A DNA stretch of 64,000 nucleotides from assembly GCF_013201665.1 (NCBI RefSeq), contig NZ_CP053840.1, forward strand, positions 2,604,001 through 2,668,000, read 5' to 3'. Source of the DNA: Arcobacter venerupis. GTDB lineage: Bacteria; Campylobacterota; Campylobacteria; Campylobacterales; Arcobacteraceae. Made by a program: the position numbers and the translations under genes. The stretch's first letter is position 1, and every line of letters starts with the position of its first letter. The notes under the pieces were generated by a model. The model did not search any database. It saw only the letters and a list, made by a program, of their open reading frames with translations, and was not told the origin of the DNA. Shown here piece after piece: positions 11,804 to 62,859 of the stretch.

Positions 11804-12562
11804 TTATGAATTAAAGTCATACACTTTAAATTCTTTTGGTTCCTTTGATTCAAAAACATAATCAAAGATTTTTGTAATTTTTGAATGAAGTAAAACTCTA
11901 TTTATATTTGAAGCTGTTCTACCATAAATTGCATCTCCAATTATTGGTAATCCAACAGAATTTAGATGAACTCTAATTTGATGAGTTCTTCCAGATTCAA
12001 TAACAACTTTAATTTTTGATTTATTACCCTCAACTAATACAGGATAAACTGTACTTTTTGCTGGTTTTCCTCTTTTTAAATCAATTTTAGATTTTGCCAT
12101 TCCTCTATCTTTTGTAGTTAGAATTGGTTTATCAATTTCTATTTCATCAACAACTTTCCCCTCAACAATAGCAACATACTCTTTGTAAACTCTATTTGCT
12201 TGAAATTCTTTAATTGCTTTTTTCTGAAATTCTTCATTTTTTGCAAACATCATTACACCACTAGTTTCTTTATCAAGTCTGTTTAATAAAATTGCCTTTT
12301 CATATTTTTTTGCAACATCATCAGCAGTTAAAAACGCTGGTTTATCAACTACTAAAATATCATTATCTTCAAAAATTACTCTTATTTTAGAGATCTCTTT
12401 AATATTAAATTTTGTATCACTTCTAATTTCACCACGTGCAATTAAAACCTTTTGCTCACCAACTTTTACAACACCTCTATCGATTAACTCTTTTGCCTTT
12501 GAGTTTGATATATTTTCTTGTAATGCTAATAGTTTATACGCTTTATCATAAGTTACAGCCAT
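11804..12562 (-). CDS. RluA-family RNA pseudouridine synthase
   Basis: The 252-aa protein has an N-terminal S4-like segment (about residues 1-60) and the catalytic motif LLNRLDKETSGVMMF with the nucleophilic Asp at D97, then RTHQIRVHLNSVGLPIIGD, which is typical of the RluA/RluC/RluD group. The target uridine in rRNA or tRNA cannot be told from sequence. It overlaps the end of waaA by 10 bases. Confidence 0.88.
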   Translation of the reverse strand: MAVTYDKAYKLLALQENISNSKAKELIDRGVVKVGEQKVLIARGEIRSDTKFNIKEISKIRVIFEDNDILVVDKPAFLTADDVAKKYEKAILLNRLDKETSGVMMFAKNEEFQKKAIKEFQANRVYKEYVAIVEGKVVDEIEIDKPILTTKDRGMAKSKIDLKRGKPAKSTVYPVLVEGNKSKIKVVIESGRTHQIRVHLNSVGLPIIGDAIYGRTASNINRVLLHSKITKIFDYVFESKEPKEFKVYDFNS

Positions 12563-37549: not shown

Positions 37550-37589
37550 AGTTTTTAGGAAGTAGTTTCATAGGAACTATCTGGAATTC
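37547..37589. repeat. Left attachment site (displaced 3' end of the YciI gene)
   Basis: This 43-bp segment matches 62571-62613 with 3 mismatches and 24 identical bases at the right (37566-37589). Read on the minus strand it encodes EFQIVPMKLLPKN and stop, exactly the end of the YciI-family protein at 62572-62859. It is therefore the left junction, carrying the original chromosomal 3' end of the target gene. Confidence 0.9.
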
Positions 37590-37954: not shown

Positions 37955-39871
37955 TTAACAATTATTTAATTTCTCAATTGTATTTTTCACAATATATTTA
38001 TTAAAATTTTCTCTTATCATATAATTCTTTATTTTTTGTTTTTCATCATATTTATAATTATCTATTAACTCATTTACATTAATCCAGAAATCTTTTTCAT
38101 TTGTTAAAAAACGACAATAGCTTACTTGTTCTTGATATAAATAATTATCTGCATATCTTGAAGATAAAATTTCTGCTAAAAATTGTATCCCTTTATTTGG
38201 ACATTCATAAAGTGAGTTAACAAATTTTGTTGTATCTAAATCCTTTAGAATTGGTATATCTTGATATTTCTCGCTGAAAAATGATTTAAGATAGTTTTCA
38301 TCACCATCTCTTATTGATTTAAGAAATAATTCTAATTCATCTTTGTCTTTCAGAACTTTTTGATTATAGAAATATTCTTCATTCTCTTTTAATATTTTGT
38401 TATACATTTTAACAAAATCTTCATCATTACTATTCATAAAGCCAAGTCCAAATCCACCATATATCATATTATTTTTGTTTAAAAGTTTTTTTCCCCATTT
38501 TTCTTTAGTTTTCAATAAACTTATATTTATATCAATTTGCTTTTCGATTGAATCAATAGAATATTCAGATAATTTTTCTTTATAAAAGAATATCAATAGA
38601 GCTATAACATGAAACAATACAATTTCATCAGTATAGTTATTTTTTATAAATTTATCTTTCATATCGGCAAATGCTAAATTAAATTCATCATCATTTAATT
38701 TTCTAAAATTCCATAGTTTATACCAACTAGGTTCATCTCGCTTTTTAATAAAATATGTTGTATTTTCAATATTAGCTTTCAAAATATCTTTATCTAAATA
38801 GCTTTTTATTAAAATATCTGACCAAATATCGTTAGTAAATATATGTTGATTAATTTCATTTTCATTAAGAATATCAATGCATTTCACTATTTTTGATTTT
38901 TCATTTTCTTCTTGATTATTAAACATTCTAGCTTTAAGTTCTTTAGATAAAATAAAATAATTTTTTATCAGTTGTTTAATAAACTCTTTATTTTCCACAA
39001 ATTTATCTTCTAAATATTCAAAAGAATATTCAAATGCCATAATACTTTGTTTAACAATTCTTAAATTAATTGAATCATTATTTTTACATACAACATCAAT
39101 TAAAGTTTCAATATTTTCATTTAATATATTTTTTGTTTTATTTGAATATTCTTCTACAAACGTCTTAATTATTGAATGTATATCCTCTTGTTGTAATTCA
39201 AAAGTTTTTCCAATAACTTTTTCTTTAAACTCAATATATTCTTTATCTGCCAATTTTTTTTCATCTGTAATAATAATTATTTTATACTGTAGTTCCTCTA
39301 ATATAGAATTAATGTACCCTAAGAATAATCTAAAATCCAATTTAGTTCTTTCTAAATCATCAAAAATAAAAACTAATTTTTTCTTGCTTTTATTCTTAGA
39401 AAAATAATCATCAAAATTTGATTTCATATCAAAATTAACATTTAAATCACTTTTACTATCACCATTAAAATCTATATTTGGTATACCTAATTTAACTCCA
39501 TTTTTTAAAATACCACCTGCAAATTTTACATATTTATGACCTAATACAGGGTGTATTTGTTGATATATCTTTTCATCAATTAACTTTAAATCACTTATAC
39601 CAAAAAGACTTATTTTTATAAATTTACATTCTTCTTTCTTAGAATCTTTTTTATAGTCTTCTATATATTCATTTATAAAAAATGTTTTTCCAGTCCCCCA
39701 TTTCGCTGTTAATAAAACTGCAAATTCTGATTTTTCAGATTTTAAATAATTATCAAAATATTTCTTAATATGTAAATTATTTTCTTTTTTTTCCACTTTT
39801 ATATCCTCTGTATAATTATTCTTCTGGAAGTATTTTATAATAAAGTTTGTAAGACTTTTCACAAGTCTCAT
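37955..39871 (-). CDS. KAP-family P-loop NTPase
   Basis: The 638-aa protein has Walker A LLTAKWGTGKTFF (residues about 53-65) and a Walker B/sensor region KLVFIFDDLERTKLDF (D171, D172), with IIIITDEKKLADKEY after it; this is the KAP NTPase pattern. The C-terminal 400 residues are helical and unassigned. Many KAP-like proteins are accessory and some act in phage defence, which fits cargo on an element, but that role is an inference. Its start overlaps the upstream gene by 4 bases. Confidence 0.8.
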   Translation of the reverse strand: MRLVKSLTNFIIKYFQKNNYTEDIKVEKKENNLHIKKYFDNYLKSEKSEFAVLLTAKWGTGKTFFINEYIEDYKKDSKKEECKFIKISLFGISDLKLIDEKIYQQIHPVLGHKYVKFAGGILKNGVKLGIPNIDFNGDSKSDLNVNFDMKSNFDDYFSKNKSKKKLVFIFDDLERTKLDFRLFLGYINSILEELQYKIIIITDEKKLADKEYIEFKEKVIGKTFELQQEDIHSIIKTFVEEYSNKTKNILNENIETLIDVVCKNNDSINLRIVKQSIMAFEYSFEYLEDKFVENKEFIKQLIKNYFILSKELKARMFNNQEENEKSKIVKCIDILNENEINQHIFTNDIWSDILIKSYLDKDILKANIENTTYFIKKRDEPSWYKLWNFRKLNDDEFNLAFADMKDKFIKNNYTDEIVLFHVIALLIFFYKEKLSEYSIDSIEKQIDINISLLKTKEKWGKKLLNKNNMIYGGFGLGFMNSNDEDFVKMYNKILKENEEYFYNQKVLKDKDELELFLKSIRDGDENYLKSFFSEKYQDIPILKDLDTTKFVNSLYECPNKGIQFLAEILSSRYADNYLYQEQVSYCRFLTNEKDFWINVNELIDNYKYDEKQKIKNYMIRENFNKYIVKNTIEKLNNC

Positions 39872-40239
39872 TTTTTAAATCCACTAACGAGAGTTAATAA
39901 ATCTTCTTCAGTAGAAGTCATCTCATTTTTTGAATTTTCTAATTTATTTATTTCATCAAGCTTTTCTATATTTTTAGTCTCTTTTTCTGCAACTTGTTTA
40001 TCATTTTTATTAGTTCGCTTTTCTCTAACTTTTATGAAACTTTGCAATGCAGTTAAACTTTTATCATTTTTTAAATTGTATGTATCTTCTAAAAATTGTG
40101 CTATTCGAGAAATAGGAAAACCTTCTTTTTTTAAAAACATTATATCTGCTTCATAATCTTGATACTTAGATTTTTTTCTATTTATCAGCTCTTTTTCTTT
40201 ATTTTTCACTAAAGCCAAAGCTTGTTTTGAAATTACCAT
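39868..40239 (-). CDS. Small HTH-like protein upstream of the KAP NTPase
   Basis: I do not recognise this 123-aa protein firmly. Residues about 28-60 (EADIMFLKKEGFPISRIAQF and following) look like a helix-turn-helix that recognises DNA; the rest is charged and helical. Such small proteins sit beside relaxases as accessory DNA-binding proteins, and this one diverges from the relaxase candidate across a palindrome-rich gap. Coupling to the KAP gene (4-base overlap) allows the alternative of a regulator for that cassette. Confidence 0.55.
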   Translation of the reverse strand: MVISKQALALVKNKEKELINRKKSKYQDYEADIMFLKKEGFPISRIAQFLEDTYNLKNDKSLTALQSFIKVREKRTNKNDKQVAEKETKNIEKLDEINKLENSKNEMTSTEEDLLTLVSGFKK

Positions 40240-40250
40240 ATATCAATCCT

Positions 40251-40313
40251 AACTATATATTTAACTAATATGAAACTATATAATAAATTATATAAAACTA
40301 TATTTAACTAATA
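40251..40313. repeat. Iteron-like repeats upstream of the relaxase candidate
   Basis: AACTATATATTTAACTAATA (40251-40270) is repeated as AACTATATTTAACTAATA (40296-40313), with more partial copies (CTATTTAACAACTATATTAA) to about 40360. These could bind the HTH-like protein or form part of an origin. Confidence 0.5.
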
Positions 40314-40418
40314 CATTATTTATATAATACTATTTAACAACTATATTAAACAATCTATTAACCCAGTATATAAACTATTCTTTACCTATTAAAATATTTT
40401 TTTTATTAATCAGGTAAT

Positions 40419-40480
40419 GTCATAAAAAATATTAAGCAATAAATTGCTAAAATATTTCCAATGACTAAGCTATATGCTTA
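40419..40480. repeat. Nested palindromes, candidate oriT
   Basis: GTCAT...AATATT...AGCAAT-aa-ATTGCT...AATATT...ATGAC (40419-40465) forms a three-part stem with small bulges, followed by a second perfect palindrome TAAGC-TATAT-GCTTA at 40466-40480. They lie 33-90 bases before the relaxase candidate's ATG, a usual place for a transfer origin and its nick-proximal hairpin. No nick site can be assigned. Confidence 0.5.
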
Positions 40481-40512
40481 ACTATCGTCAAGCTTTTTTA
40501 TAAAGGATTTCT

Positions 40513-42153
40513 ATGAGCAAGAATGAATCATCTTACAGGGTTGATTTACATATTTTAGACCATGCAGAAACTATTTATAATACTCTTGGAGAATACAATC
40601 CTTTAAAACACAAAGCTCACTTTAAATGCTCTATTGATACAAGCCAGTTAATTGCAAATGGATTTAATTCAAAAGATAAAATAAACAATGTAATGAAATT
40701 AATGTTAGATGAGATAATCAATACAAAATATATTTTTAGAGTAAAAACTAGAGAATACATTGATAGAAATGGAAATAAAAAAGAGTATTTTTCAAATAAG
40801 AGTTTTGATTTAGCAAGTGATACATTAAGTGCATATCACAATAGAGCTTTTAGTAGTGAAATTGATTTTGATAATATTGAGCCACATTTTCATTTTTTAT
40901 TAGACTCTTCAAAACAAACTGGTTTAAACTATTACCATTTAAAAAAGCATTTACAAACTGTTGCAAGTAAATATAGTTTAGTATTTCATTTTGATGAAGA
41001 AAAAGATAGAAGTGTAAATAAATTTCAAGGACTTATGGAAAAGTGTTCAAGGTTCTCTTGGTTCACTCAAAAGATGACAGATAAACAAGTAATAAACTAT
41101 GTTAATTCAAAAGCTGATGATTTAACAAAGAACTTAGAGCTTTTATATGATTATGCAACTGCAACTGGTAATTTACAGTTTTATATTAAAGCTATGAACA
41201 ATATCAAAAAAAGATTAAATAGATTAGATTTAGGTTTCGAGTTCAGGAGTAATAATATAAAGCACATCTACCCTATTCCAATTGATGAAATTACAAATGA
41301 AACTTTAATCGCAATTGCAAATAAAGATAAAGAAAAATTAAAAAAGCTAATGACTAGGGATAACTTTTTAGCTAGAGATTACATCAAATATACAAATGGT
41401 TTTCAATCTACAATAATTGATGAGTTAAAACAAAGAGATTATATCTTTCCAATAATTTCTTCAAATGATTTAATACTAGATAATATGAAAGGTAAAAGCA
41501 AAACAGAGTTTAGAAGTAGTGATAAATTTTTATCTTTTAACAATGCTGTTAAAAATGATATATTAGAAGCTTTAAAATATGCAAAAAATGAAATTGAGCT
41601 AAAAGAGATACTTTTAAAATTTGGATATAAAGATTTAGGATTTAGAAATCAAAATATACAAGGAAAAAGAAAAAAAACTGGATTAAAATTTAGCTATGAA
41701 GATAAAAATTACTCTGTATATTTTAATCAAATTGGACTAGATGAAAGTACAATTTTATTTCACTTACAAAATAATGTAAAATCAAATGTAACTAATACTT
41801 TAGATTTAAAACAAAAATCAAATATTCAAAACCTAAAATTCTTTGATTCTTTCCAAAATAAAATCTATAAAGATATTTACAATCTTGAAAGTGATATTGA
41901 TTTATCAAGATACTATATTAAAAAAGAGAATAATTCTGTAAAAATAACTTCTAAATCAAAAGATAAAGACCTTGAAATTATTGACTCTATAAATGAAATT
42001 TTAAGTAGTGGAGAGATTAGTGAACAAGAGGCTAAATTAATAGTTCAACTTATGAAACAAAAGGGATGGACTGATATTAATAAACTTGATTTTAACGACT
42101 CTAGTAAAGAATTTATTTCTAAGATTAGGGATGAGTTTAATAATGAGAAATAA
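40513..42153 (+). CDS. HUH-type relaxase candidate (or replication initiator)
   Basis: The 546-aa protein has PHFHFLLD with the metal-binding pair H125/H127 (an HUH motif), and tyrosines Y140/Y141 in NYYHLKKHL (a YxxK-type arrangement). Near the C-terminus EAKLIVQLMKQKGWTDI (KGW at about 517-519) resembles the KGW segment of relaxase LPD7-like regions. AAAGG precedes the ATG. The gene lies next to palindromes and to a TraD-bearing operon, which favours conjugative DNA nicking; a rolling-circle replication role is the alternative. The catalytic Tyr is not certain. Confidence 0.6.
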   Translation: MSKNESSYRVDLHILDHAETIYNTLGEYNPLKHKAHFKCSIDTSQLIANGFNSKDKINNVMKLMLDEIINTKYIFRVKTREYIDRNGNKKEYFSNKSFDLASDTLSAYHNRAFSSEIDFDNIEPHFHFLLDSSKQTGLNYYHLKKHLQTVASKYSLVFHFDEEKDRSVNKFQGLMEKCSRFSWFTQKMTDKQVINYVNSKADDLTKNLELLYDYATATGNLQFYIKAMNNIKKRLNRLDLGFEFRSNNIKHIYPIPIDEITNETLIAIANKDKEKLKKLMTRDNFLARDYIKYTNGFQSTIIDELKQRDYIFPIISSNDLILDNMKGKSKTEFRSSDKFLSFNNAVKNDILEALKYAKNEIELKEILLKFGYKDLGFRNQNIQGKRKKTGLKFSYEDKNYSVYFNQIGLDESTILFHLQNNVKSNVTNTLDLKQKSNIQNLKFFDSFQNKIYKDIYNLESDIDLSRYYIKKENNSVKITSKSKDKDLEIIDSINEILSSGEISEQEAKLIVQLMKQKGWTDINKLDFNDSSKEFISKIRDEFNNEK

Positions 42154-42210
42154 TATATTTTGATATAATAACTAATTAATAAGATATTTTTAAATTAAAA
42201 AAAAGGTAAC

Positions 42211-43812
42211 ATGATAAAAATTATAAAAAAAGTTTTCAATTCTTTAAATGGAAATAAAAATCTAACAAAAAATACAAATAAAGAATCAACATCAATAGAT
42301 TATAGTGAAAAAGAAGTGAAAGTTGTAACATTCAAAAATAAAAAATTTTCTAATATTGAAAATGAAATAAAAAATGATTTGACTAAGTTTGAAACAATTA
42401 AATTTATTGATTGTACTTTTACTAATTGCTTTTCAGATGATTTAATAATAAATAAAAATTGTGAGTTAATTTTTGAAAAATGCACTATTCAAGGAGAATT
42501 TAGACACATATTTTGTGAATCAATTATTTTTAAAGATTCTGAAATTGAGAGATATTATTTTAATAATCCTTCAGAAGATAAAATTGAAATAAAAGATTTA
42601 TTATTTTTTAATTCAAAAATAGACAATTTAGAATTAGAAGGTGTTGTTCTTAAAAAACAACTTATAAAAAATAACAATAATATAAAAGAAAAATTTAAAG
42701 AAATTAAGTCTCTAATATTAAAAAATTGTTCAATAGAAAAAAATTTCATAATAGATTCATCAGAAAGAAAAAAAGAAAATGATTCTAAGCGATTCAAAAT
42801 TACTGAATTAGATTTAACTAATTCAACATTTGAAGAAAATACAAAAGTAAAAATCCAATTTTGTGATATAAATAAAGCTATATTTTATAATACAAAATTT
42901 AAAGATTTAGCAGACTTTTATCAAAGTAAATTTGAAGAAGTAGATTTTGAAAGAACTGATTTTGAGAAAATATCAGTTTTTAGTGAATCTGAATTTAATT
43001 GTACTTTAAATTTTAAATATACTAAATTCTTAGGAAAAGCGATTTTTAGGGATACAGTAGTTTCAGGAGAATTAGATTTAAGAAATTCTATTTTTGATGA
43101 TGAAGCAAATTTTTTAGATATTACATCAATATCGAGAAAAGAATATGATGAAAAATTAAAAGATTATAAATTTATTGGAGAACCAACTGATATAAATGTA
43201 GCCAATAGAGAAACAGCAAGAATCATAAAAAATTTTTATGATAATTCAAATAATATTATTGAAGCTAATAGATTTTATAAATTAGAAATGAATAAAAGGA
43301 TGGATGAATATAAACTTTTAAAAAGAAGTGATTATCGTACATTTGAAAGATTTGTATTCTGGCTACATAAAATTAGCTCAAATCATTCTCAAAGTTGGTT
43401 TTTAGCTTTTTTTTGGATTATGTTTTTTACATTTACATATTCAGCTTTCATGAACAATTTTAAATATGAATATACTTTAATATATAATGAGTTTTTATCT
43501 CAATATTTTGCAAAAATATTTATATTAATTTGTATAGTTATAATGTTATCATTTCTTGTTTTTTGGAAAATGAAAAATGAAAAAAATTTACTCTATTCCT
43601 TTTTATTTTTTTCAATAATATGTTTATATTTAGCTTACTCATATTTAACACAGGATGCAAATTTAAAATATTTTTCAAATTCAGTAAACCCTTTTTCTAT
43701 AATGACAGGAAAAGAAGAATTAACATTTTGGGGACTAGTTTATAAAACAACTATCGCTTATTTAATTTATCAATTAATTATTTCAATAAGACAAAACACA
43801 AGAAGAAAATAA
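42211..43812 (+). CDS. Pentapeptide-repeat protein with C-terminal membrane helices
   Basis: The 533-aa protein has imperfect pentapeptide repeats over about residues 25-295 (for example AIFYNTKFKDLADFYQSKFE and CTLNFKYTKFLGKAIF). A helical linker (NRETARIIKNFYDNSNNIIE) leads to three or four membrane helices from about residue 390, where the sequence is strongly hydrophobic. This layout recurs in Campylobacterota proteins of unknown role. As element cargo it may be a membrane-acting effector or sensor. AAAAAGG precedes the ATG. Confidence 0.75.
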   Translation: MIKIIKKVFNSLNGNKNLTKNTNKESTSIDYSEKEVKVVTFKNKKFSNIENEIKNDLTKFETIKFIDCTFTNCFSDDLIINKNCELIFEKCTIQGEFRHIFCESIIFKDSEIERYYFNNPSEDKIEIKDLLFFNSKIDNLELEGVVLKKQLIKNNNNIKEKFKEIKSLILKNCSIEKNFIIDSSERKKENDSKRFKITELDLTNSTFEENTKVKIQFCDINKAIFYNTKFKDLADFYQSKFEEVDFERTDFEKISVFSESEFNCTLNFKYTKFLGKAIFRDTVVSGELDLRNSIFDDEANFLDITSISRKEYDEKLKDYKFIGEPTDINVANRETARIIKNFYDNSNNIIEANRFYKLEMNKRMDEYKLLKRSDYRTFERFVFWLHKISSNHSQSWFLAFFWIMFFTFTYSAFMNNFKYEYTLIYNEFLSQYFAKIFILICIVIMLSFLVFWKMKNEKNLLYSFLFFSIICLYLAYSYLTQDANLKYFSNSVNPFSIMTGKEELTFWGLVYKTTIAYLIYQLIISIRQNTRRK

Positions 43813-48556: not shown

Positions 48557-50635
48557 TTAAACTCCTAGCTCAATTTGTTTTTTTATAATCACATCAACAT
48601 CTACATATCTGTTTAGAACAACATCATCTTTTGCAGTTTTGTATAAGCTTTTTTGCTTCATATACTTAGCCATAAAAGGTGATGCTATAGAGTTTTTAAT
48701 TATGTAGCCCTCACCATTTTTAATATTGCTTAACATTTCAGGTTTAAAAAAGTCTTCTTCACTTTTTGAGAGTTTTGAATCTTCGTTGTTATGAGATTTT
48801 TTTAGATTTTTTTCTCTTTTCATACTCTCTTCAAGAGTGATTTTTTCAACTTTTTGTACTTTTGAATTAAGAAGTTTTATAAGTTCTACATCTTCTAATT
48901 TTAAAGATATAATTGTTTTTACATTTGCTATTATTTGAGAGTTATCAATACTTCCCATCGTCTCTTTTAAATCACTTTGAAATGAAAGAACTGCTCCCAT
49001 GTATAAACCTCTAATAACTGAGAGTAAATCTCCAATTTGATAGCTTTGATTATTTTTTGTTTTAAGCCATGAGTTAATCTCATCAAGTATTACAAGGGTA
49101 GTAGTATCAGGAATAAAATCTTTCCCGCGTCTTTCAGCTAGTAGATTTAAAGTTGATACTAAAAGTTCGGCTAAAATTGGGCTATAGATTTTATTTTGTC
49201 CTGGCAAGTTCACTATTACAATTTTATTACTATCTATAGCATCTAAGATATTTAAGTCACTATTTACATTTTTTAGAATTGGTGCGAAAGAATCAAAGAA
49301 ATTAACTAACTTATCCATCAATCCTTGAGCTACTGAAAGGTCATAGAAAGTTCCACTTCTTTGTGGATATTTTAAACTTACTGCTTCAATACCTTTAATA
49401 GTAGTTCCACTCTCTGTTACTACTCCATTTAAGTATGTTTCTTTTAATTTTTCCCAATCTGGTACATTCGAAAGCATAATTACAACATTTTTTAATTCAT
49501 TGTGAAATTGGTTTTTTACACTACTATCTAAATGAGAAAGTGAACTATTATTTTTACTTTCAACTTCAATAATTTTAATGAACTTTGAATATAACTTAGT
49601 GTTAATCTCATTTTTATTTGTTTCATAAATCTCATCAAAAATTAGTAAAAACTTGATTAATAAATCTGTTTCACTAAGAAGCCTATTAAATGAAAAATAG
49701 TCCAGTTTTACTAAATGTTTTTGATACTCTTCAAACTTATTAGTTGAATTAAAAACTTTATCAATTTTTGAAATATCTAAAAAGAAATTTGCATCTCTTA
49801 GAGTTAATATTACTTTTAAAAGTGATGATAAGAAAAGTTTTGCTTTTCCATTCCATGAGCCATCATCATTTCCCTCTAAGTCAGCTATACTTGTTAGCAT
49901 AGTAATAATATCTTTTGAAGCTCCTAATTCAAAAAGATTAATTGTATTTGAGTTAAATTTTCCTCTTTTATCAGGATTCCAGTTTACTATGTGTAAATCA
50001 GACAATCTATTAAAAGTTGCGCAAATAGATTGAACTCTTTGAAGCATTGAGTTGTCTGCTTTTCCAAAAATTGCAAATACTCCTGAACCTTTTGATATAC
50101 TTGATTCTATATACGAATTCAATAATAACTCTGTTTTTCCACCACCAGTAGTAGCCATCAAAGCACAATGCTGTCTTAGAATTGCATCATCAATTAAAAC
50201 TGGAGTAATTGCATTACTTTTACTTGAAGTTAGTTTTTGAGACGGGATTGTTTTTTCAATTTCATAATCAAATCCAAAAAATTTTCTAACTTGATTGTAA
50301 AGAGTTAAAACATCAACATCTTTTTTATGCTTTTTTACAAGCGTTCCAAGATGTATACTGTATTTATTTTTTAAATTATCATTATTTATGAGAAATAGCT
50401 CTTTAATCTTTTCATATTTATTTTTGTTTTTTAATAAATTTTTTTGAAATTTAAAAGAAAAGAAATAGATAAAAAGTGCAAATGCGAAGAAGTGAATCTT
50501 TAAACCAATACTAAATACAAAAAATAGAATTATCCATAAGCTAGACCAAAAAACTTCGTCAAGTAATTTTTCTTCACTATCATCTATTTTTGTGTAGGTA
50601 TTAACCCTTATTTTATCACTGTTATTATTTTCCAT
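48557..50635 (-). CDS. TraD/VirD4-like conjugative coupling ATPase
   Basis: The 692-aa protein has two N-terminal membrane helices (about residues 29-62), Walker A CALMATTGGGKTELLLNSYI (about 157-176), and a Walker B-type TTLVILDEINSWL. SYQIGDLLSVIRGLYMGAVL and QSDLKETMGS follow, as in T4SS coupling proteins (TraD/TraG/VirD4, FtsK-HerA superfamily). It would bring relaxase-bound DNA to the membrane channel. It is the central gene of the minus-strand operon. No other ATPase of VirB4 or VirB11 type is recognised in the element. Confidence 0.8.
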   Translation of the reverse strand: MENNNSDKIRVNTYTKIDDSEEKLLDEVFWSSLWIILFFVFSIGLKIHFFAFALFIYFFSFKFQKNLLKNKNKYEKIKELFLINNDNLKNKYSIHLGTLVKKHKKDVDVLTLYNQVRKFFGFDYEIEKTIPSQKLTSSKSNAITPVLIDDAILRQHCALMATTGGGKTELLLNSYIESSISKGSGVFAIFGKADNSMLQRVQSICATFNRLSDLHIVNWNPDKRGKFNSNTINLFELGASKDIITMLTSIADLEGNDDGSWNGKAKLFLSSLLKVILTLRDANFFLDISKIDKVFNSTNKFEEYQKHLVKLDYFSFNRLLSETDLLIKFLLIFDEIYETNKNEINTKLYSKFIKIIEVESKNNSSLSHLDSSVKNQFHNELKNVVIMLSNVPDWEKLKETYLNGVVTESGTTIKGIEAVSLKYPQRSGTFYDLSVAQGLMDKLVNFFDSFAPILKNVNSDLNILDAIDSNKIVIVNLPGQNKIYSPILAELLVSTLNLLAERRGKDFIPDTTTLVILDEINSWLKTKNNQSYQIGDLLSVIRGLYMGAVLSFQSDLKETMGSIDNSQIIANVKTIISLKLEDVELIKLLNSKVQKVEKITLEESMKREKNLKKSHNNEDSKLSKSEEDFFKPEMLSNIKNGEGYIIKNSIASPFMAKYMKQKSLYKTAKDDVVLNRYVDVDVIIKKQIELGV

Positions 50636-52715: not shown

Positions 52716-53096
52716 TTATTTCAAAATTATAAAATTTATGCCAGTTGTAACAACTGCAACTATCAACACCACTTTTAAGACAGAGAGATTAAGTATCTTG
52801 TCTGCAAGATTTATTATTTTTTCTATTTTTTTAAGCTCTTGATTTTTCCCTAAATCTTCAAGTTTTTGAGAAAGAAATGAAAGATAAAGTGAGTAGTTTT
52901 TAATCATCTCTTGCTCATTTTTTGGCTCGAACTTGCTTATCATAAATGTATAATCTTTCATTTCTGAATTTAAATCTTGCAGTTGAGTAATATTATTAAT
53001 TACCTCTTGATTTAAAACATCGAGTTTTAAAATTGATGCTTTTAACTCTGCGGTAACTCTTTTTGCTTCACTTAGAGTTATCTCATCATTTTGCAT
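52716..53096 (-). CDS. Tail-anchored helical protein after ParA
   Basis: The 126-aa protein is a helical coiled coil with a C-terminal membrane helix (about residues 105-124, VLKVVLIVAVVTTGINFIIL). It resembles the layout of the 117-aa protein at 47238-47591 but not its sequence. Its start overlaps the end of parA by 11 bases. Confidence 0.65.
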   Translation of the reverse strand: MQNDEITLSEAKRVTAELKASILKLDVLNQEVINNITQLQDLNSEMKDYTFMISKFEPKNEQEMIKNYSLYLSFLSQKLEDLGKNQELKKIEKIINLADKILNLSVLKVVLIVAVVTTGINFIILK

Positions 53097-53868
53097 TAAG
53101 CACCTCGTCTAATACTTGGTGAGCGACATCAATAACTTCTGTTTTGTAGTTTTGAGAATCTTCAAGAATCTCTAGAATAAGACTATATGAATATATTGAG
53201 TTCTTATCATTTTTATCAAAAGATTCTAAAAGTTTTTGATTAATGTTCTCTTTTTCTTGCTCATCTTGAGCAAGTTCATAGACAGTTTTCTTAAGCTTTC
53301 TGCTTAAATCTATACAATCACTCTCTGGCAATATAATATATGGATATTTATTTAATTCTTTATCTTCAAAAAAATCACCGTATTGAAACTGAACTCTTTT
53401 TGGATTTCTCACTCGAGATAAAACAAATAATACTTTTACATTTTTATTCATATCTAATATAATTTTCAGACATTCTTTAGCATTTTTTAAGTCTTGCGAA
53501 CCGCCAGACATGGGAACGATGAATAAATCAACCATGTTGTACATGTGTGTTGATTTAAGCGATCGTAAAAAATTAGTTGTCGTAGCGTTCCCCCCAACAT
53601 CCAACACTGTGTTATTTTTATTTTCAGATAAAAATAAATCTCTAACCGTTTGATTTAAATCTTTTGAATTAGAATCTACAATTATTTGTTTTGTCTTGAT
53701 TTTTGATTTTGAAAATATTTTCGCATCTTGATTTTGATTATCTAACTCCCATAATTCTATTTCTTGACCTTTTGCAAGAAAATAAGTTGATATAATCTGC
53801 ATAGCAGTAGTAGATTTTGAAGCTCCACCTTTAGATTGAACAACTAGAATATTTTTCTGATTTCTCAT
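53086..53868 (-). CDS. ParA-family ATPase of the element
   Basis: The 260-aa protein starts KNILVVQSKGGASKSTTAMQ with a deviant Walker A (KGGASKST) and has NNTVLDVGGNATTTNFL and DLFIVPMSGGSQDL, typical of ParA. It may place or stabilise the element or position the transfer complex. It is the first gene of the tight operon that runs to 44104, with AAAGGA before its ATG. No ParB is recognised next to it. Confidence 0.85.
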   Translation of the reverse strand: MRNQKNILVVQSKGGASKSTTAMQIISTYFLAKGQEIELWELDNQNQDAKIFSKSKIKTKQIIVDSNSKDLNQTVRDLFLSENKNNTVLDVGGNATTTNFLRSLKSTHMYNMVDLFIVPMSGGSQDLKNAKECLKIILDMNKNVKVLFVLSRVRNPKRVQFQYGDFFEDKELNKYPYIILPESDCIDLSRKLKKTVYELAQDEQEKENINQKLLESFDKNDKNSIYSYSLILEILEDSQNYKTEVIDVAHQVLDEVLNAK

Positions 53869-54391: not shown

Positions 54392-55552
54392 ATGCCTGAA
54401 AACCATAAACAACCAGAAAGAGGATTTAAACAATTAGCTTGTGAGATTCTTGATATTAGTACTCGAAGCTATTCTAATTTCAGCAAACAGAAACGATTAA
54501 TAATTACTCTACTAGAAAAATATTTTACTAAAGAAGATTTACAAGAATTCATTGAATTTGGGAAAATAAACAATTTTGAAAACAACAACAGTATTCAAGA
54601 GTATTTTATAGAGACAAAAAAAAATAAATATATTCAAAATTTTAAAAATAATCACTCATCATTAAAGTTTGTTGCCGAAAATGAATATATCACAGATTTC
54701 TATTTCTATTTTTTAACAAATTTAAAAAACAAAAAAAACTTCTTTTCAACTACAGATTATGAGTATGAATCATATTTTATTGAGAGATACGACTTTAATA
54801 AAGCACTCAGTGATTATATATTTGAAAATCAACAAAAAGAATTTGAAAAAAAGAACTTTGAAATAAGACTACTATTTATAAAAGAAGAAAAAGAAGCGGA
54901 ACATGAATATTTTATAAAAGATATTGAAGAATTTTTTCCTCAACAAAAAAATGAAACAAAAAAAGATGAAATTAAATTAAAGAATAATGATTTTAATTTT
55001 GATGAAGAAAAAGAAAAACAAAATTTAATTAAAGAAATAATTGAGCATTCTCAAAAGCAATTTGAACATATATACAATCACTTATCATTTATACAACATT
55101 GGGATAATGATATGTATTTTTTCATAAATTTTTTAATTAAAACAGATTTTGAATTATTTATAAATTCTGGCGATGATGAATTATTATATCATGCAATAGG
55201 ATTTTTGGTTTATTCAAATAATAACTTTAAAGAAGAAGATATTTTATGTGATAATAAAGTATCCGTTGTAAATGAAATTTATGAATATTTTAATAAAAAT
55301 AAAAATGAAATAAATAAAAAACTAATAAAAGATATATCATCAGATTTTGAAAAATTATATGAGTTTAAAAAATATAAAAAAATTAGTGAATATTTAAAAA
55401 AAATAAATAAAGAATTATCTAAAGAGGAAATATACAAAATAATTTCAGAACCTAAAAAATTTGAAAAAATAAGTAAAGAAATAGAAGAATTTGATAGAAA
55501 TGAATTTGGGAAAGAAATTTTAAAAAATCTAGTAGAAAATATTAAATCCTAA
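54392..55552 (+). CDS. Unknown 386-aa protein divergent from the AlpA-like gene
   Basis: I do not recognise this protein. The N-terminus (FKQLACEILDISTRSYSNFS) looks like a small helix-turn-helix, so DNA or RNA binding is possible; the rest is charged and helical with no membrane segments. AAAAGGAAT precedes the ATG. It lies just upstream of the structured RNA candidate, which might be its partner or the next part of the same transcript. Confidence 0.65.
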   Translation: MPENHKQPERGFKQLACEILDISTRSYSNFSKQKRLIITLLEKYFTKEDLQEFIEFGKINNFENNNSIQEYFIETKKNKYIQNFKNNHSSLKFVAENEYITDFYFYFLTNLKNKKNFFSTTDYEYESYFIERYDFNKALSDYIFENQQKEFEKKNFEIRLLFIKEEKEAEHEYFIKDIEEFFPQQKNETKKDEIKLKNNDFNFDEEKEKQNLIKEIIEHSQKQFEHIYNHLSFIQHWDNDMYFFINFLIKTDFELFINSGDDELLYHAIGFLVYSNNNFKEEDILCDNKVSVVNEIYEYFNKNKNEINKKLIKDISSDFEKLYEFKKYKKISEYLKKINKELSKEEIYKIISEPKKFEKISKEIEEFDRNEFGKEILKNLVENIKS

Positions 55553-55572
55553 CCACCTTTTTTATCTCAGTT

Positions 55573-56158
55573 GTCCCCGCTTTTCTGATTTAATCTTTCC
55601 GTTCGCCTTTGGCTAAGTTCAAATGATATGGTAGGGAATGGCTCAAGAGCGGAGACATCTTGCCCTTATACTACTTTGGATTTAACAAAATAGTACAGGA
55701 CAAGTTAGTCTAAAAATTTGCAAATGACACGGCTTTTGCAGGACTTTCGCTTACGACTTAAGTAGATTATTGAACAGCGCTTAATCTACGACACAATTAC
55801 ACTAGACGGTTCCCCTTATCTAGTAACCTATATCTTTAATAAATCCAGTATTAGTTCTCATACTAATTTAAAAACCTCTGTTTTATATATTAACTGGTAA
55901 ATCTATAGGAGTGTCCTTGCTACTGCTTTCGCAGATGAACGGGCATCTCCAAGGTGAATCGTACCACATACACTTCCTCACACCTTGCTGATTTGGTCTC
56001 TTATTTGGCTGTGATTGTTTTCGGTGAGTTCATTCTCACCTTGCATAAGTATTTAATTTTATCGCAGGGTTTCACCTTACTGTGCAGTCCTTATACTCTA
56101 CCGCTTAATAGTTTTTTAGACAATACTTTATCCTCAACACTTAAGTTGATTTTTTTTT
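55573..56158. ncRNA. Candidate large structured RNA, strand uncertain
   Basis: The segment is visibly richer in G+C than its surroundings (25 of 60 bases in 55561-55620) and has no credible ORF. It holds many perfect inverted repeats: GTAGATT/AATCTAC (55762-55789), ACTAGA/TCTAGT (55801-55824), CTGC/GCAG closing a 4-base loop (55923-55934), CAAGGTG/CACCTTG (55950-55987), GGTGAG/CTCACC (56023-56040), and CAAGA/TCTTG with AGGG/CCCT (55633-55666). The loop 55649-55656 can pair with 55573-55580, and GGTT in the 55801 hairpin with AACC outside it, giving pseudoknots. GAAA tetraloop and G-U pairs favour the minus strand; a T-run hairpin at 56134-56158 favours the plus strand. I do not recognise the family. 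Confidence 0.6.
56134..56158 (+). terminator. Short hairpin with nine Ts
   Basis: TCAAC-acttaa-GTTGA followed by nine Ts could end a plus-strand transcript at the right edge of the structured RNA candidate. The stem is only 5 bp. A second T-ended hairpin (AGCAATTC 56223-56230 with GGATTGCT 56256-56263, then seven Ts at 56274-56280) lies further on. Confidence 0.45.
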
Positions 56159-56379
56159 GAAAATTTTTTGGATAAAAGCTTGAAATTTATTTAGATATTT
56201 GTTAAGATGTCATTACTTTTTTAGCAATTCTTTTAGTCGCCAAACTAACAGGGAAGGATTGCTGAAATACTCCTTTTTTTAGACATAAAAATATTCTCCA
56301 ACAATTAAGTGGCTTTCATACTTTTACATTTAACATTTGAATTTATTTTGAGATTTGTATTTAAAATTAGAATGTAGAT

Positions 56380-61120: not shown

Positions 61121-62431
61121 TCAATAAACACTCATTTTTAATTTGTCTAACCAATCGGCATACCACTGAACTAGTTCTTTTTTCTCTTCAAAATATTTAT
61201 ATTTTGATTCTCTGTTGTAAGCTGCTTTAGTTTGATTCCTTTCTTTATGAGACAGGCAAGATTCAATAATATCAGAATGAAAACCATGTTCTTTATATAA
61301 TTCATGTGCTATTGTAGAAAACATACTTCTAAAGCCATGGAAAGTGTGTTTATCTTGATAGCCTAACTTATTTAATGTATTTGATAATGTAGCTCCTGAA
61401 ACTCCTCTATCATTCTTATATGGAGAAGGAAATACAAATTTACTTTTATGTCTTGAAAAAGGTTCTATTTGTTTTAGTATATAAATTGCTTGAGTTGGTA
61501 ATGGACAAACAAAATCAACTTTCATTTTCATCTTTTCTTTTGGTATTGTCCAAATACCTTTTTCTAAATCTATATTTTCCCAACACATAAGTCTTATATT
61601 ATCACTTCTAACAAATACATAAGGAATTAATTTAAATATAAATATTGTACTTATTTCACATCTTAATTTTTCTCCTATTAAGTTTATATCAATAAGTAAT
61701 TGTTTTATATCCTTTGGTTCAGTTAATGCAGGAAGATGAGTATCTTTTTTATTTGGAACTAAAACAGCATTTTTATCTATATCAGCAATTATATTATGTT
61801 CTATATACTCTTTAGTAACTGCATACATATATATTTTATTTATTATCGATAAAAGCCTATGAGCTGATTCTATAATTCCTTTATTTTGCATTTTTTCTAA
61901 TGCAGTTATAATATTAACTCTTTTTATGTCTTTGATTGCAACACTACCTAACCAATTTGTGATATTTTTTAAAATTCTTGTATTTTGAATAATTGTTGCT
62001 TCACTAGAACTTTTTTTTCTTAATTCAATCCATTCATCTACAACATTTTGTAAAGTCAAAGATTCTGAAGCTTTTTTAATTCGTTTTGCTGAAATGGGAT
62101 TGATATTATTAGTTAATAATTGTCTAGCTTCTTCTCTTTTTTCTCTTGCTTCTTTTAAAGTTACTTCTGGATAAACACCAAAAGACATACTAAGATTTTT
62201 ATTTCCATATCTAAAATCATATCTCCATACTTTAGAGCCATTAGCTTTTATAATAAGATACAAACCTTTTCCATCTGCTAACTTATTTTTTTTTATTGCT
62301 TTTTCATTTGAATTAGATTTTTCTAATTCTTTCTTTAACAGCTCAAATTCTTCATCAGTAGTGTATTTAGCATTTTTAATCTCTGTATCACTAAGAGGTT
62401 TTGATATTTTTGGCATTTTTAAGGTACTCAT
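61121..62431 (-). CDS. P4-type tyrosine integrase
   Basis: The 436-aa protein has the N-terminal DUF4102 arm-binding domain (LADGKGLYLIIKANGSKVWR), a core-binding domain and the tyrosine recombinase catalytic set: R in FVRSDNIRLMCWENI, HGFR (H365, R368), H395 in LSHKE and Y405 in AAYNRE. It sits 140 bases inside the right attachment site, so it is the integrase of this element. Repeats near its promoter may bind it or the AlpA-like protein. Confidence 0.95.
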   Translation of the reverse strand: MSTLKMPKISKPLSDTEIKNAKYTTDEEFELLKKELEKSNSNEKAIKKNKLADGKGLYLIIKANGSKVWRYDFRYGNKNLSMSFGVYPEVTLKEAREKREEARQLLTNNINPISAKRIKKASESLTLQNVVDEWIELRKKSSSEATIIQNTRILKNITNWLGSVAIKDIKRVNIITALEKMQNKGIIESAHRLLSIINKIYMYAVTKEYIEHNIIADIDKNAVLVPNKKDTHLPALTEPKDIKQLLIDINLIGEKLRCEISTIFIFKLIPYVFVRSDNIRLMCWENIDLEKGIWTIPKEKMKMKVDFVCPLPTQAIYILKQIEPFSRHKSKFVFPSPYKNDRGVSGATLSNTLNKLGYQDKHTFHGFRSMFSTIAHELYKEHGFHSDIIESCLSHKERNQTKAAYNRESKYKYFEEKKELVQWYADWLDKLKMSVY

Positions 62432-62570: not shown

Positions 62571-62613
62571 TTTAGTTTTTTGGGAGTAATTTCATAGGAA
62601 CTATCTGGAATTC
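62571..62613. repeat. Right attachment site (3' end of the YciI gene)
   Basis: It pairs with 37547-37589 (43 bp, 3 mismatches). It forms the last 13 codons and stop of the intact YciI gene. The three mismatches lie outside the 24 identical bases, in the terminal part, and do not change the encoded residues. Confidence 0.9.
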
Positions 62614-62859
62614 GTCCATATTCCAAACATTATTTTTTACATATGGCTCATTTTCTAACCATTCATCTAACTCTTCATCAGTTTCAAAATCAATTAATAG
62701 TGTAGATCCAACCATAACTTCATCTTCTATTAGTGCGCCAGCATTAATTATTTTTCCCTCAGCCATTAATTTTCTAGCACCATCAATATGAGCTTGTCTT
62801 GATTCTAATCTTCTTTCTAGTGCATTTTCATTGTCATAAGCTATTACTAAATATTGCAT
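62572..62859 (-). CDS. YciI-family protein, integration target
   Basis: The 95-aa protein has the YciI ferredoxin-like fold pattern: LVIAYDNENALERRLESRQA, HIDGARKLMAEGKIINAGAL and a C-terminal EFQIVPMKLLPKN. YciI proteins are small enzyme-like proteins of unclear role. The element inserted at its 3' end without breaking it: the final codons are supplied by the element. The gene faces trxA in the pre-integration order. Confidence 0.9.
   Translation of the reverse strand: MQYLVIAYDNENALERRLESRQAHIDGARKLMAEGKIINAGALIEDEVMVGSTLLIDFETDEELDEWLENEPYVKNNVWNMDEFQIVPMKLLPKN

Follow-up and report, generated by a model that had tools for sequence, protein, structure and literature searches.

Embedded in an AT-rich element of Arcobacter venerupis lies a G+C-rich island that raises a simple question: does it encode a structured RNA and, if so, on which strand and to what end? 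The island belongs to a stretch of 64,000 nucleotides (contig NZ_CP053840.1, positions 2,604,001 to 2,668,000), which is called the window in the following. An earlier note, made from the letters alone, had taken the island for a large structured RNA with two possible pseudoknots and had linked it with phage or element biology.

A G+C-rich stretch in a repeat-bounded element

The base composition bears out the earlier note, with a G+C content of 37.9% between 55553 and 56140 as compared to 24.5% for the element and 26.3% for the window. The statement that the island is free of ORFs holds for the minus strand, where none of at least 50 aa occurs in the region, but not for the plus strand, on which one antisense ORF of 68 aa with a GTG start (55954-56160) overlaps it. 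The region is present once in the genome. Folding of the single sequence gave -149.8 kcal/mol for the minus strand (z -3.4) and -138.9 kcal/mol for the plus strand (z -3.2, 20 shuffles each); as both strands beat their shuffles, the single-sequence fold alone does not settle the strand. When the alignments described below are taken into account, the minus strand looks as if it encodes a structured RNA, so far unnamed, that we term class A. Its bounds are those of a conserved block of about 570 letters, and the ends of the transcript are putative.

~55551-56119, minus strand: structured RNA of class A, the conserved block that follows repeat R2 (14-sequence alignment and structure counts; 17-sequence alignment including another family)

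A search of the window against Rfam at gathering score returned no credible match apart from tRNA genes. At permissive E values (up to 10 for the region), the region and 15 related loci yielded, besides tRNA genes, only matches below the gathering score, nine for the region and one to a microRNA model (E 0.068) inside the copy at locus L060.

The RNA lies inside an element of 25 kb bounded by a perfect 24-bp repeat (wider match, 43 bp at 93%), in agreement with the earlier view of a large RNA of mobile DNA. Besides the RNA, it encodes an integrase, a Fic protein, a ParA-like protein and a coupling protein:

37566-37589, strand not applicable: att-like direct repeat, left end
62590-62613, strand not applicable: att-like direct repeat, right end, at the 3' end of a YCII-family gene (62572-62859)
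61121-62431, minus strand: tyrosine integrase of the element
53086-53868, minus strand: ParA-like ATPase (phrog_164, E 2.3e-10; one other match below cut-off)
48557-50635, minus strand: TraD/TrbC-like conjugative coupling protein (below curated cut-offs)
54392-55552, plus strand: gene for 386 aa, convergent with the RNA, without match to a family; in locus L039, the RNA is followed by a relative

Between 58253 and 60944, the Fic-domain gene runs at its end into the start of a gene for 503 aa without assigned family, with which it overlaps, and the two are possibly a two-gene cargo module. The cargo end beside the left repeat (37955-43812) encodes a KAP-family NTPase, a 546-aa protein without Pfam match and a pentapeptide-repeat protein.

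Two related loci, L031 and L038, are islands at tRNA-Glu genes. Their repeats are separated by about 8.5 and 5.8 kb, respectively, and enclose the RNA, which is thus inside a repeat-bounded element in three cases (25, 8.5 and 5.8 kb). The island of L038 contains a gene for an AbiEii-type protein and one from the integrase cluster. In the stretches searched at ten other loci, no att pair was convincing. In locus L079, two perfect copies of an 80-bp direct repeat, one about 930 bases upstream of the RNA start and the other 2040 bases downstream of it, enclose the RNA, a 334-aa gene and a repressor-like gene; they could mark a nested mobile unit.

Distribution of class A RNA

Among 104 genomes of the family to which A. 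venerupis belongs, BLAST gave 14 strong matches including the window's own copy, besides weaker ones; the other copies are 79-96% identical to it, five of them over only part of the query. A full-length fifteenth family copy (L018) was detected by profile (E 6.8e-15). Five of the family copies come from records for Arcobacter cryaerophilus LMG 9065 and for MAGs labelled Arcobacter or Aliarcobacter. One genome, G001, has a truncated class A 5' end at a tRNA-Glu site (L044, 9923-10037) and a whole copy elsewhere. With class A present in only 15 of the 104 genomes, either the elements manage without the RNA or the elements themselves are rare.

A covariance model of one class A module (R1), searched against 398 genomes of the order, gave ten matches at E <=1, namely eight family copies, one in genome G209 of another family (E 0.005) and a weak one in G343 (E 0.75), which was not accepted. 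Profile alignment showed the G209 copy to be near full-length (E 8.3e-11), and a sibling copy was then found in G572. A core model built with both (R2), searched against the 228 genomes of that other family, added a third copy in G513 (E 9.4e-8), in which core, pseudoknot partners and 3' tail are all present by reading. Such distant copies score 37.5-51.8 bits by profile, and that of G513 scores 49.2 bits by covariance model. Six further weak matches of model R2 were not accepted; among the weak matches, L153 looks coding by reading. Searches by blastn in plasmids and in a phage collection gave no class A match, and in IMG/VR no exact match to the core pattern and no viral contig with the patterns was obtained.

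A covarying fold with a pseudoknot

The 14 family sequences were aligned (alignment A3), and a wider alignment comprised 17 sequences including those of another family. RNAalifold predicted 117 pairs with 27 double-sided changes for the 14-sequence alignment, from which a refined structure of 112 pairs, including one pseudoknot and a 3' stem, was drawn by hand. In this structure, 96.0% of the cells are paired as compared to 90.0 in shuffles, 33 of the 112 pairs are double-changed (19.6 +- 2.4 in shuffles) and the covariation score is 0.266 (0.146 in shuffles), values that none of 500 shuffles reached; further pair types number 79 as compared to 71.8, a value reached by one shuffle in 500. Sliding the partners by 1-3 columns left 36-44% of cells paired and at most 11 double-changed pairs. 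Since the structure was taken from the tested alignment, which favours it, the shuffle and slide controls are not fully independent of it. Neither a known Rfam family nor a lack of covariation, two outcomes that by the earlier note would have spoken against such an RNA, was seen; the covariation among homologues is strong and lies above the controls. The alignment fold also separates the strands, with -96.4 kcal/mol in the sense (minus) direction, -65.2 in antisense (plus) and -34.7 +- 5.8 in 20 column shuffles. G-U cells exceed A-C cells by 124:20 in the 14 rows, partly by construction because the structure was chosen on the minus strand.

55942-56005, minus strand: most conserved core, AGACCAAATCAG...GTGTGAGG...GGTACGATTCAC...TGGAGATGCCC (alignments)
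55981-55987 with 55950-55956, minus strand: core helix
55937-55940 with 55809-55812, minus strand: pseudoknot GTTC/GAAC (alignments)
55646-55658 with 55571-55583, minus strand: helix 15, closing stem of the 3' domain, crossing helix 1

Among the 14 rows, the pseudoknot beside the core is formed by GTTC/GAAC or by GCTC/GAGC, two G-U variants included, and by reading the partners at the same position are GTCT/AGAC in L018 and GTAG/CTAC in L079 and L080. For one of its two proposed pseudoknots, the earlier note had singled out an AACC loop; this arm (about 55808-55812) was right, the proposed partner was not, and the partner supported by the alignment is GTTC at 55937-55940. Its other pseudoknot, 55573-55580 with 55649-55656, survives as a pairing within helix 15. 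By crossing helix 1 (55630-55634/56098-56102), helix 15 plausibly forms a pseudoknot, and only plausibly, as support for helix 1 is weaker (94.3% paired, zero double-sided changes). Helix 15 itself is also weaker at 80% paired, in part because two rows have a 3' domain of a different version, which does not align in register; in L011/L014 and in L079/L080 its sequence is different and, by reading, still complementary. A GAAA loop is indeed present on the minus strand (55927-55930). It is not conserved, and relatives have other loops on the covarying stem.

Loci L005, L011 and L014 (listed as L034, L040 and L043 in the neighbour analysis) have upstream chromosomal gene clusters in common. At this one chromosomal site, the RNAs of L005 and L011 are 96% identical in their 5' part (columns 1-456) and 42% identical in their 3' part, while L006 and L007 follow the reverse pattern (78% and 95%, respectively). 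From these contrasts, the 3' domain looks to have been exchanged as a block, with the closing stem apparently kept complementary.

A common upstream region and a second RNA

Upstream of the RNA, a hairpin is framed by two direct repeats:

56120-56148, minus strand: repeat R2, a small palindrome CAACTTAAGTGTTG followed by GGATAAAGTATTGTC, common to class A and class B
56223-56263, minus strand: upstream hairpin with loop AGTTTGGCGAC
56282-56312, minus strand: repeat R1, the other copy of the direct repeat resembling R2

The hairpin stems vary between loci yet, by reading, remain complementary. Of the 14 class A loci in the family, nine have R1, as do roughly half of the class B loci; L079 and L080 have the hairpin and neither repeat. 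Judged by its letters, R2 is a candidate promoter/operator or relaxase site. When its motif was searched with three mismatches in the 104 genomes, 22 sites in 21 genomes were obtained, as compared to one match for a reversed control pattern; by coordinates, class A accounts for 14 sites, class B for seven and the truncated copy L044 for one. A short peptide across the hairpin, tempting in L079 and L080, was rejected as its frame is lost in other loci by reading. In L080, a second AGTTTGGCGAC without obvious stem lies at 12024, 2.8 kb after the first.

The second class emerged from four loci (L015, L016, L017 and L028) whose weak matches are confined to the first 60 bases of the class A query. 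In these loci, R2 together with the AGTTTGGCGAC hairpin, which has one additional letter in L017, precedes a different RNA, class B. The 104 family genomes contain eight near-full class B copies, a partial match in G050 and a fragment in G083. The fold of a nine-sequence alignment gave -51.9 in sense, -32.6 in antisense and -21.8 +- 3.9 in shuffles. Four class B loci had no match in Rfam, and blastn with one class B copy found none in plasmids. The G050 copy lacks R2 and adjoins relatives of the integrase and of the repressor-like and excisionase-like genes associated with class A, the surroundings of class B in L139; in one element, class B occupies the gene position of class A.

When 288 genomes of the order were searched with a class B model (R3), 13 matches reached E <=0.1, of which 11 were new and weak. 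Six of these, from three further families, align as one very conserved RNA and are recognised by the class B profile (E 2.5e-15 to 6.4e-7), so that class B is known from at least four bacterial families. The contrast is weaker in the fold of these six (-94.1 in sense, -76.7 in antisense, -60.8 +- 4.9 in shuffles). One new match is a truncated class B copy in G209 and one more (G174) has the motif. Several of the copies from other families stand behind a tRNA array that also precedes class A in L080. Upstream of the RNA by about 150 bases, the loci L161-L167 (L163 excepted), all from other families, show two long inverted repeats that interlock, CAACGGG / GTACCAAGTG / CCGTTG / CACTTGGTAC, a candidate pseudoknot or switch as judged from the letters; by reading, class A in L079 has a related stretch in front of it. 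No family genome among the 104 contains both classes, and G209, from another family, combines class A with the truncated class B copy. Mutual exclusion of the classes between genomes was considered, and the numbers are too small for it.

What the structure could be other than a trans-acting RNA

The upstream arrangement invites an explanation at the level of DNA. R1, hairpin and R2 would then be an origin of transfer, and the RNA-sense strand the leading region, which would be first into the recipient and fold in it, as a single-strand promoter or priming site; folded single-stranded DNA would also produce part of the strand bias seen above. R2 ends in GTATTGTCT, which we take to resemble the nic site of R388, and direct repeats and a hairpin stand before it. 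L079 and L080 have TrwC relaxases, and the small islands L031 and L038, without relatives of the transfer-gene clusters, would need mobilisation. Nevertheless, we consider this explanation unlikely. The letters of GTATTGTCT are not kept in every copy, L079 and L080 lack this form of R2, and we know of no origin of transfer with a covarying structure as large as these 600 nt. TrwC occurs in four of 104 family genomes, of which only G023 bears the RNA, on another contig, so that a link to TrwC in the sense of a MOBF origin is not supported; the absence of TrwC from the window's own genome weakens the explanation further.

Somewhat less probable again is an RNA for replication or partition, that is a primer or copy-control RNA of a transient circle, encoded near ParA. 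ParA-like genes of one cluster lie near the RNA in the window, L033, L039, L042, L079 and L080, a ParA-like gene stands just behind the class B copy of L167 by reading, and direct repeats and palindromes are found upstream. However, L031 and L038 show no member of that ParA cluster, and no replication initiator was identified among the selected proteins. ARRPOF, a large RNA of a mobile replicon, has been suggested to act in replication of a Fusobacterium plasmid. Class A is comparable as a large RNA of a mobile replicon; it differs in that it has no Rfam match and that its link to replication is conjectural.

The protein-coding neighbourhood was then compared by clustering neighbouring ORFs by BLAST, with a 3' neighbour available for 17 class A loci. 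The 17 3' neighbours fall into 14 gene clusters, eleven of them single and three shared (window and L039; L035 and L041, HsdM-type; L036 and L037, a small ORF), and across loci the RNA has no fixed protein neighbour. In an uneven scan for protein families, which did not extend to the L031 cargo or the L039 genes, restriction-modification, AbiE-type or patatin proteins turned up near the RNA in seven of the 14 family loci (L034, L035, L036, L038, L040, L041 and L043), as would suit an antitoxin or abortive-infection RNA that is part of defence or toxin-antitoxin cargo. We regard such a role as improbable, as the neighbours belong to many families and the direct 3' neighbours in the window, L033 and L079 match no known family. 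Regulator or efflux genes are the neighbours in L032 and L037, and those of L033 and L042 gave no clear family match. The neighbours in L079 include a repressor-like and an excisionase-like protein, both with weak scores, and in L079 as in L080 the RNA is part of an element with ParA-like and TrwC relaxase genes.

That the RNA is large, compact and pseudoknotted might recall an intron, a retron or another ribozyme class, as a member or a remnant, which we hold to be very improbable. Group I and II introns, RNase P RNA and tmRNA gave no match with Rfam or ARAGORN models, as the earlier note had judged from motifs for all but group I; no Rfam model of any intron or ribozyme matched, no reverse transcriptase or homing enzyme was found among the neighbours scanned, and the RNA sits between genes. 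A cis-acting leader, riboswitch or attenuator is the least likely reading, since the 3' neighbours are mostly convergent (12 of 17) and of many families, and the five co-directional ones that would suit it belong to three clusters, with two HsdM-type genes (L035, L041) and two copies of the shared small ORF (L036, L037) among them.

Comparison with known large RNAs

Only a small number of large ornate RNAs is known, and little is understood of what they do (PMC12286853). GOLLD and ROOL are described as large RNAs of phages and prophages that lie often near tRNA islands, have no known function and form RNA-only cages, and ROOL as an RNA of about 660 nt, highly structured and without known protein partner (PMC12286853). 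Class A resembles ROOL in its large size, structure, occurrence in mobile DNA and apparent independence of a fixed protein partner. The setting agrees in part: class A and class B are near tRNAs in 14 loci, but within integrative or conjugative-type elements and islands, some of which have coupling-protein or relaxase genes, instead of phages and prophages. RNA and tRNA are on one strand in all 14 verified tRNA-adjacent loci, with the L044 fragment and the truncated copy L163 counted. With GOLLD, class A has in common that it is a large mobile-element RNA near tRNAs with one conserved and one variable part; the sharpest swap in class A, however, concerns the 3' part, whereas the 3' region of GOLLD is conserved and its 5' region less so (PMC12286853). 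Neither the ROOL nor the GOLLD covariance model of Rfam matched. In the best reading, class A is like GOLLD and ROOL in kind and a member of neither.

Structured RNAs have been sought before in G+C-rich intergenic regions of a related genome, that of Arcobacter sp. L (Stav et al. 2019; PMC6429828), a setting much like the present one. Most of the candidates that remained in that search were rare, did not occur outside Arcobacter and received no name (PMC6429828), and an earlier, unnamed sighting is therefore possible: class A may be among these motifs. A published description of class A was not found among the matches listed in a literature search.

Proposed role and implications

We consider it moderately probable that class A is a standalone folded noncoding RNA, a core part of a family of integrative elements of the Campylobacterales, and that it serves the element. 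A trans-acting RNA is preferred over an RNA for replication or partition and over a structure in single-stranded DNA. Points against it are the small share of family genomes with class A, the part of the strand bias that folded single-stranded DNA would produce, the three pairs of loci with a 3' neighbour family in common and the ten loci at which no att pair was convincing. Transcription would start from the R2 region, where the palindrome lies just upstream of a -10-like stretch, and R2 might be controlled by the element's own repressor. The folded product may act in trans, possibly after assembling into oligomers like those described for GOLLD and ROOL, and would serve upkeep or transfer of the element and not its cargo. 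The block-exchanged 3' domain would carry the variable or type-specific part.

A wider proposal, possible though we would rather bet against it, unites both classes in a superfamily of large ornate RNAs of integrative elements, in which the RNA and the integrase are the main backbone parts recognised in the smallest islands, the 3' domain is swapped like a specificity cassette and the RNA has an assembly, mobilisation or exclusion function in conjugative and defence islands, as a counterpart of GOLLD and ROOL in phages. The scanned class A and class B copies match no family of Rfam 15. A new pair of giant-RNA families, located not in phages but in small elements in which the RNA adjoins an integrase and cargo, would make the role of giant RNAs of mobile DNA testable by deletion and transfer assays, for which the domain swap and the common 5' repeat and hairpin provide concrete handles on function.
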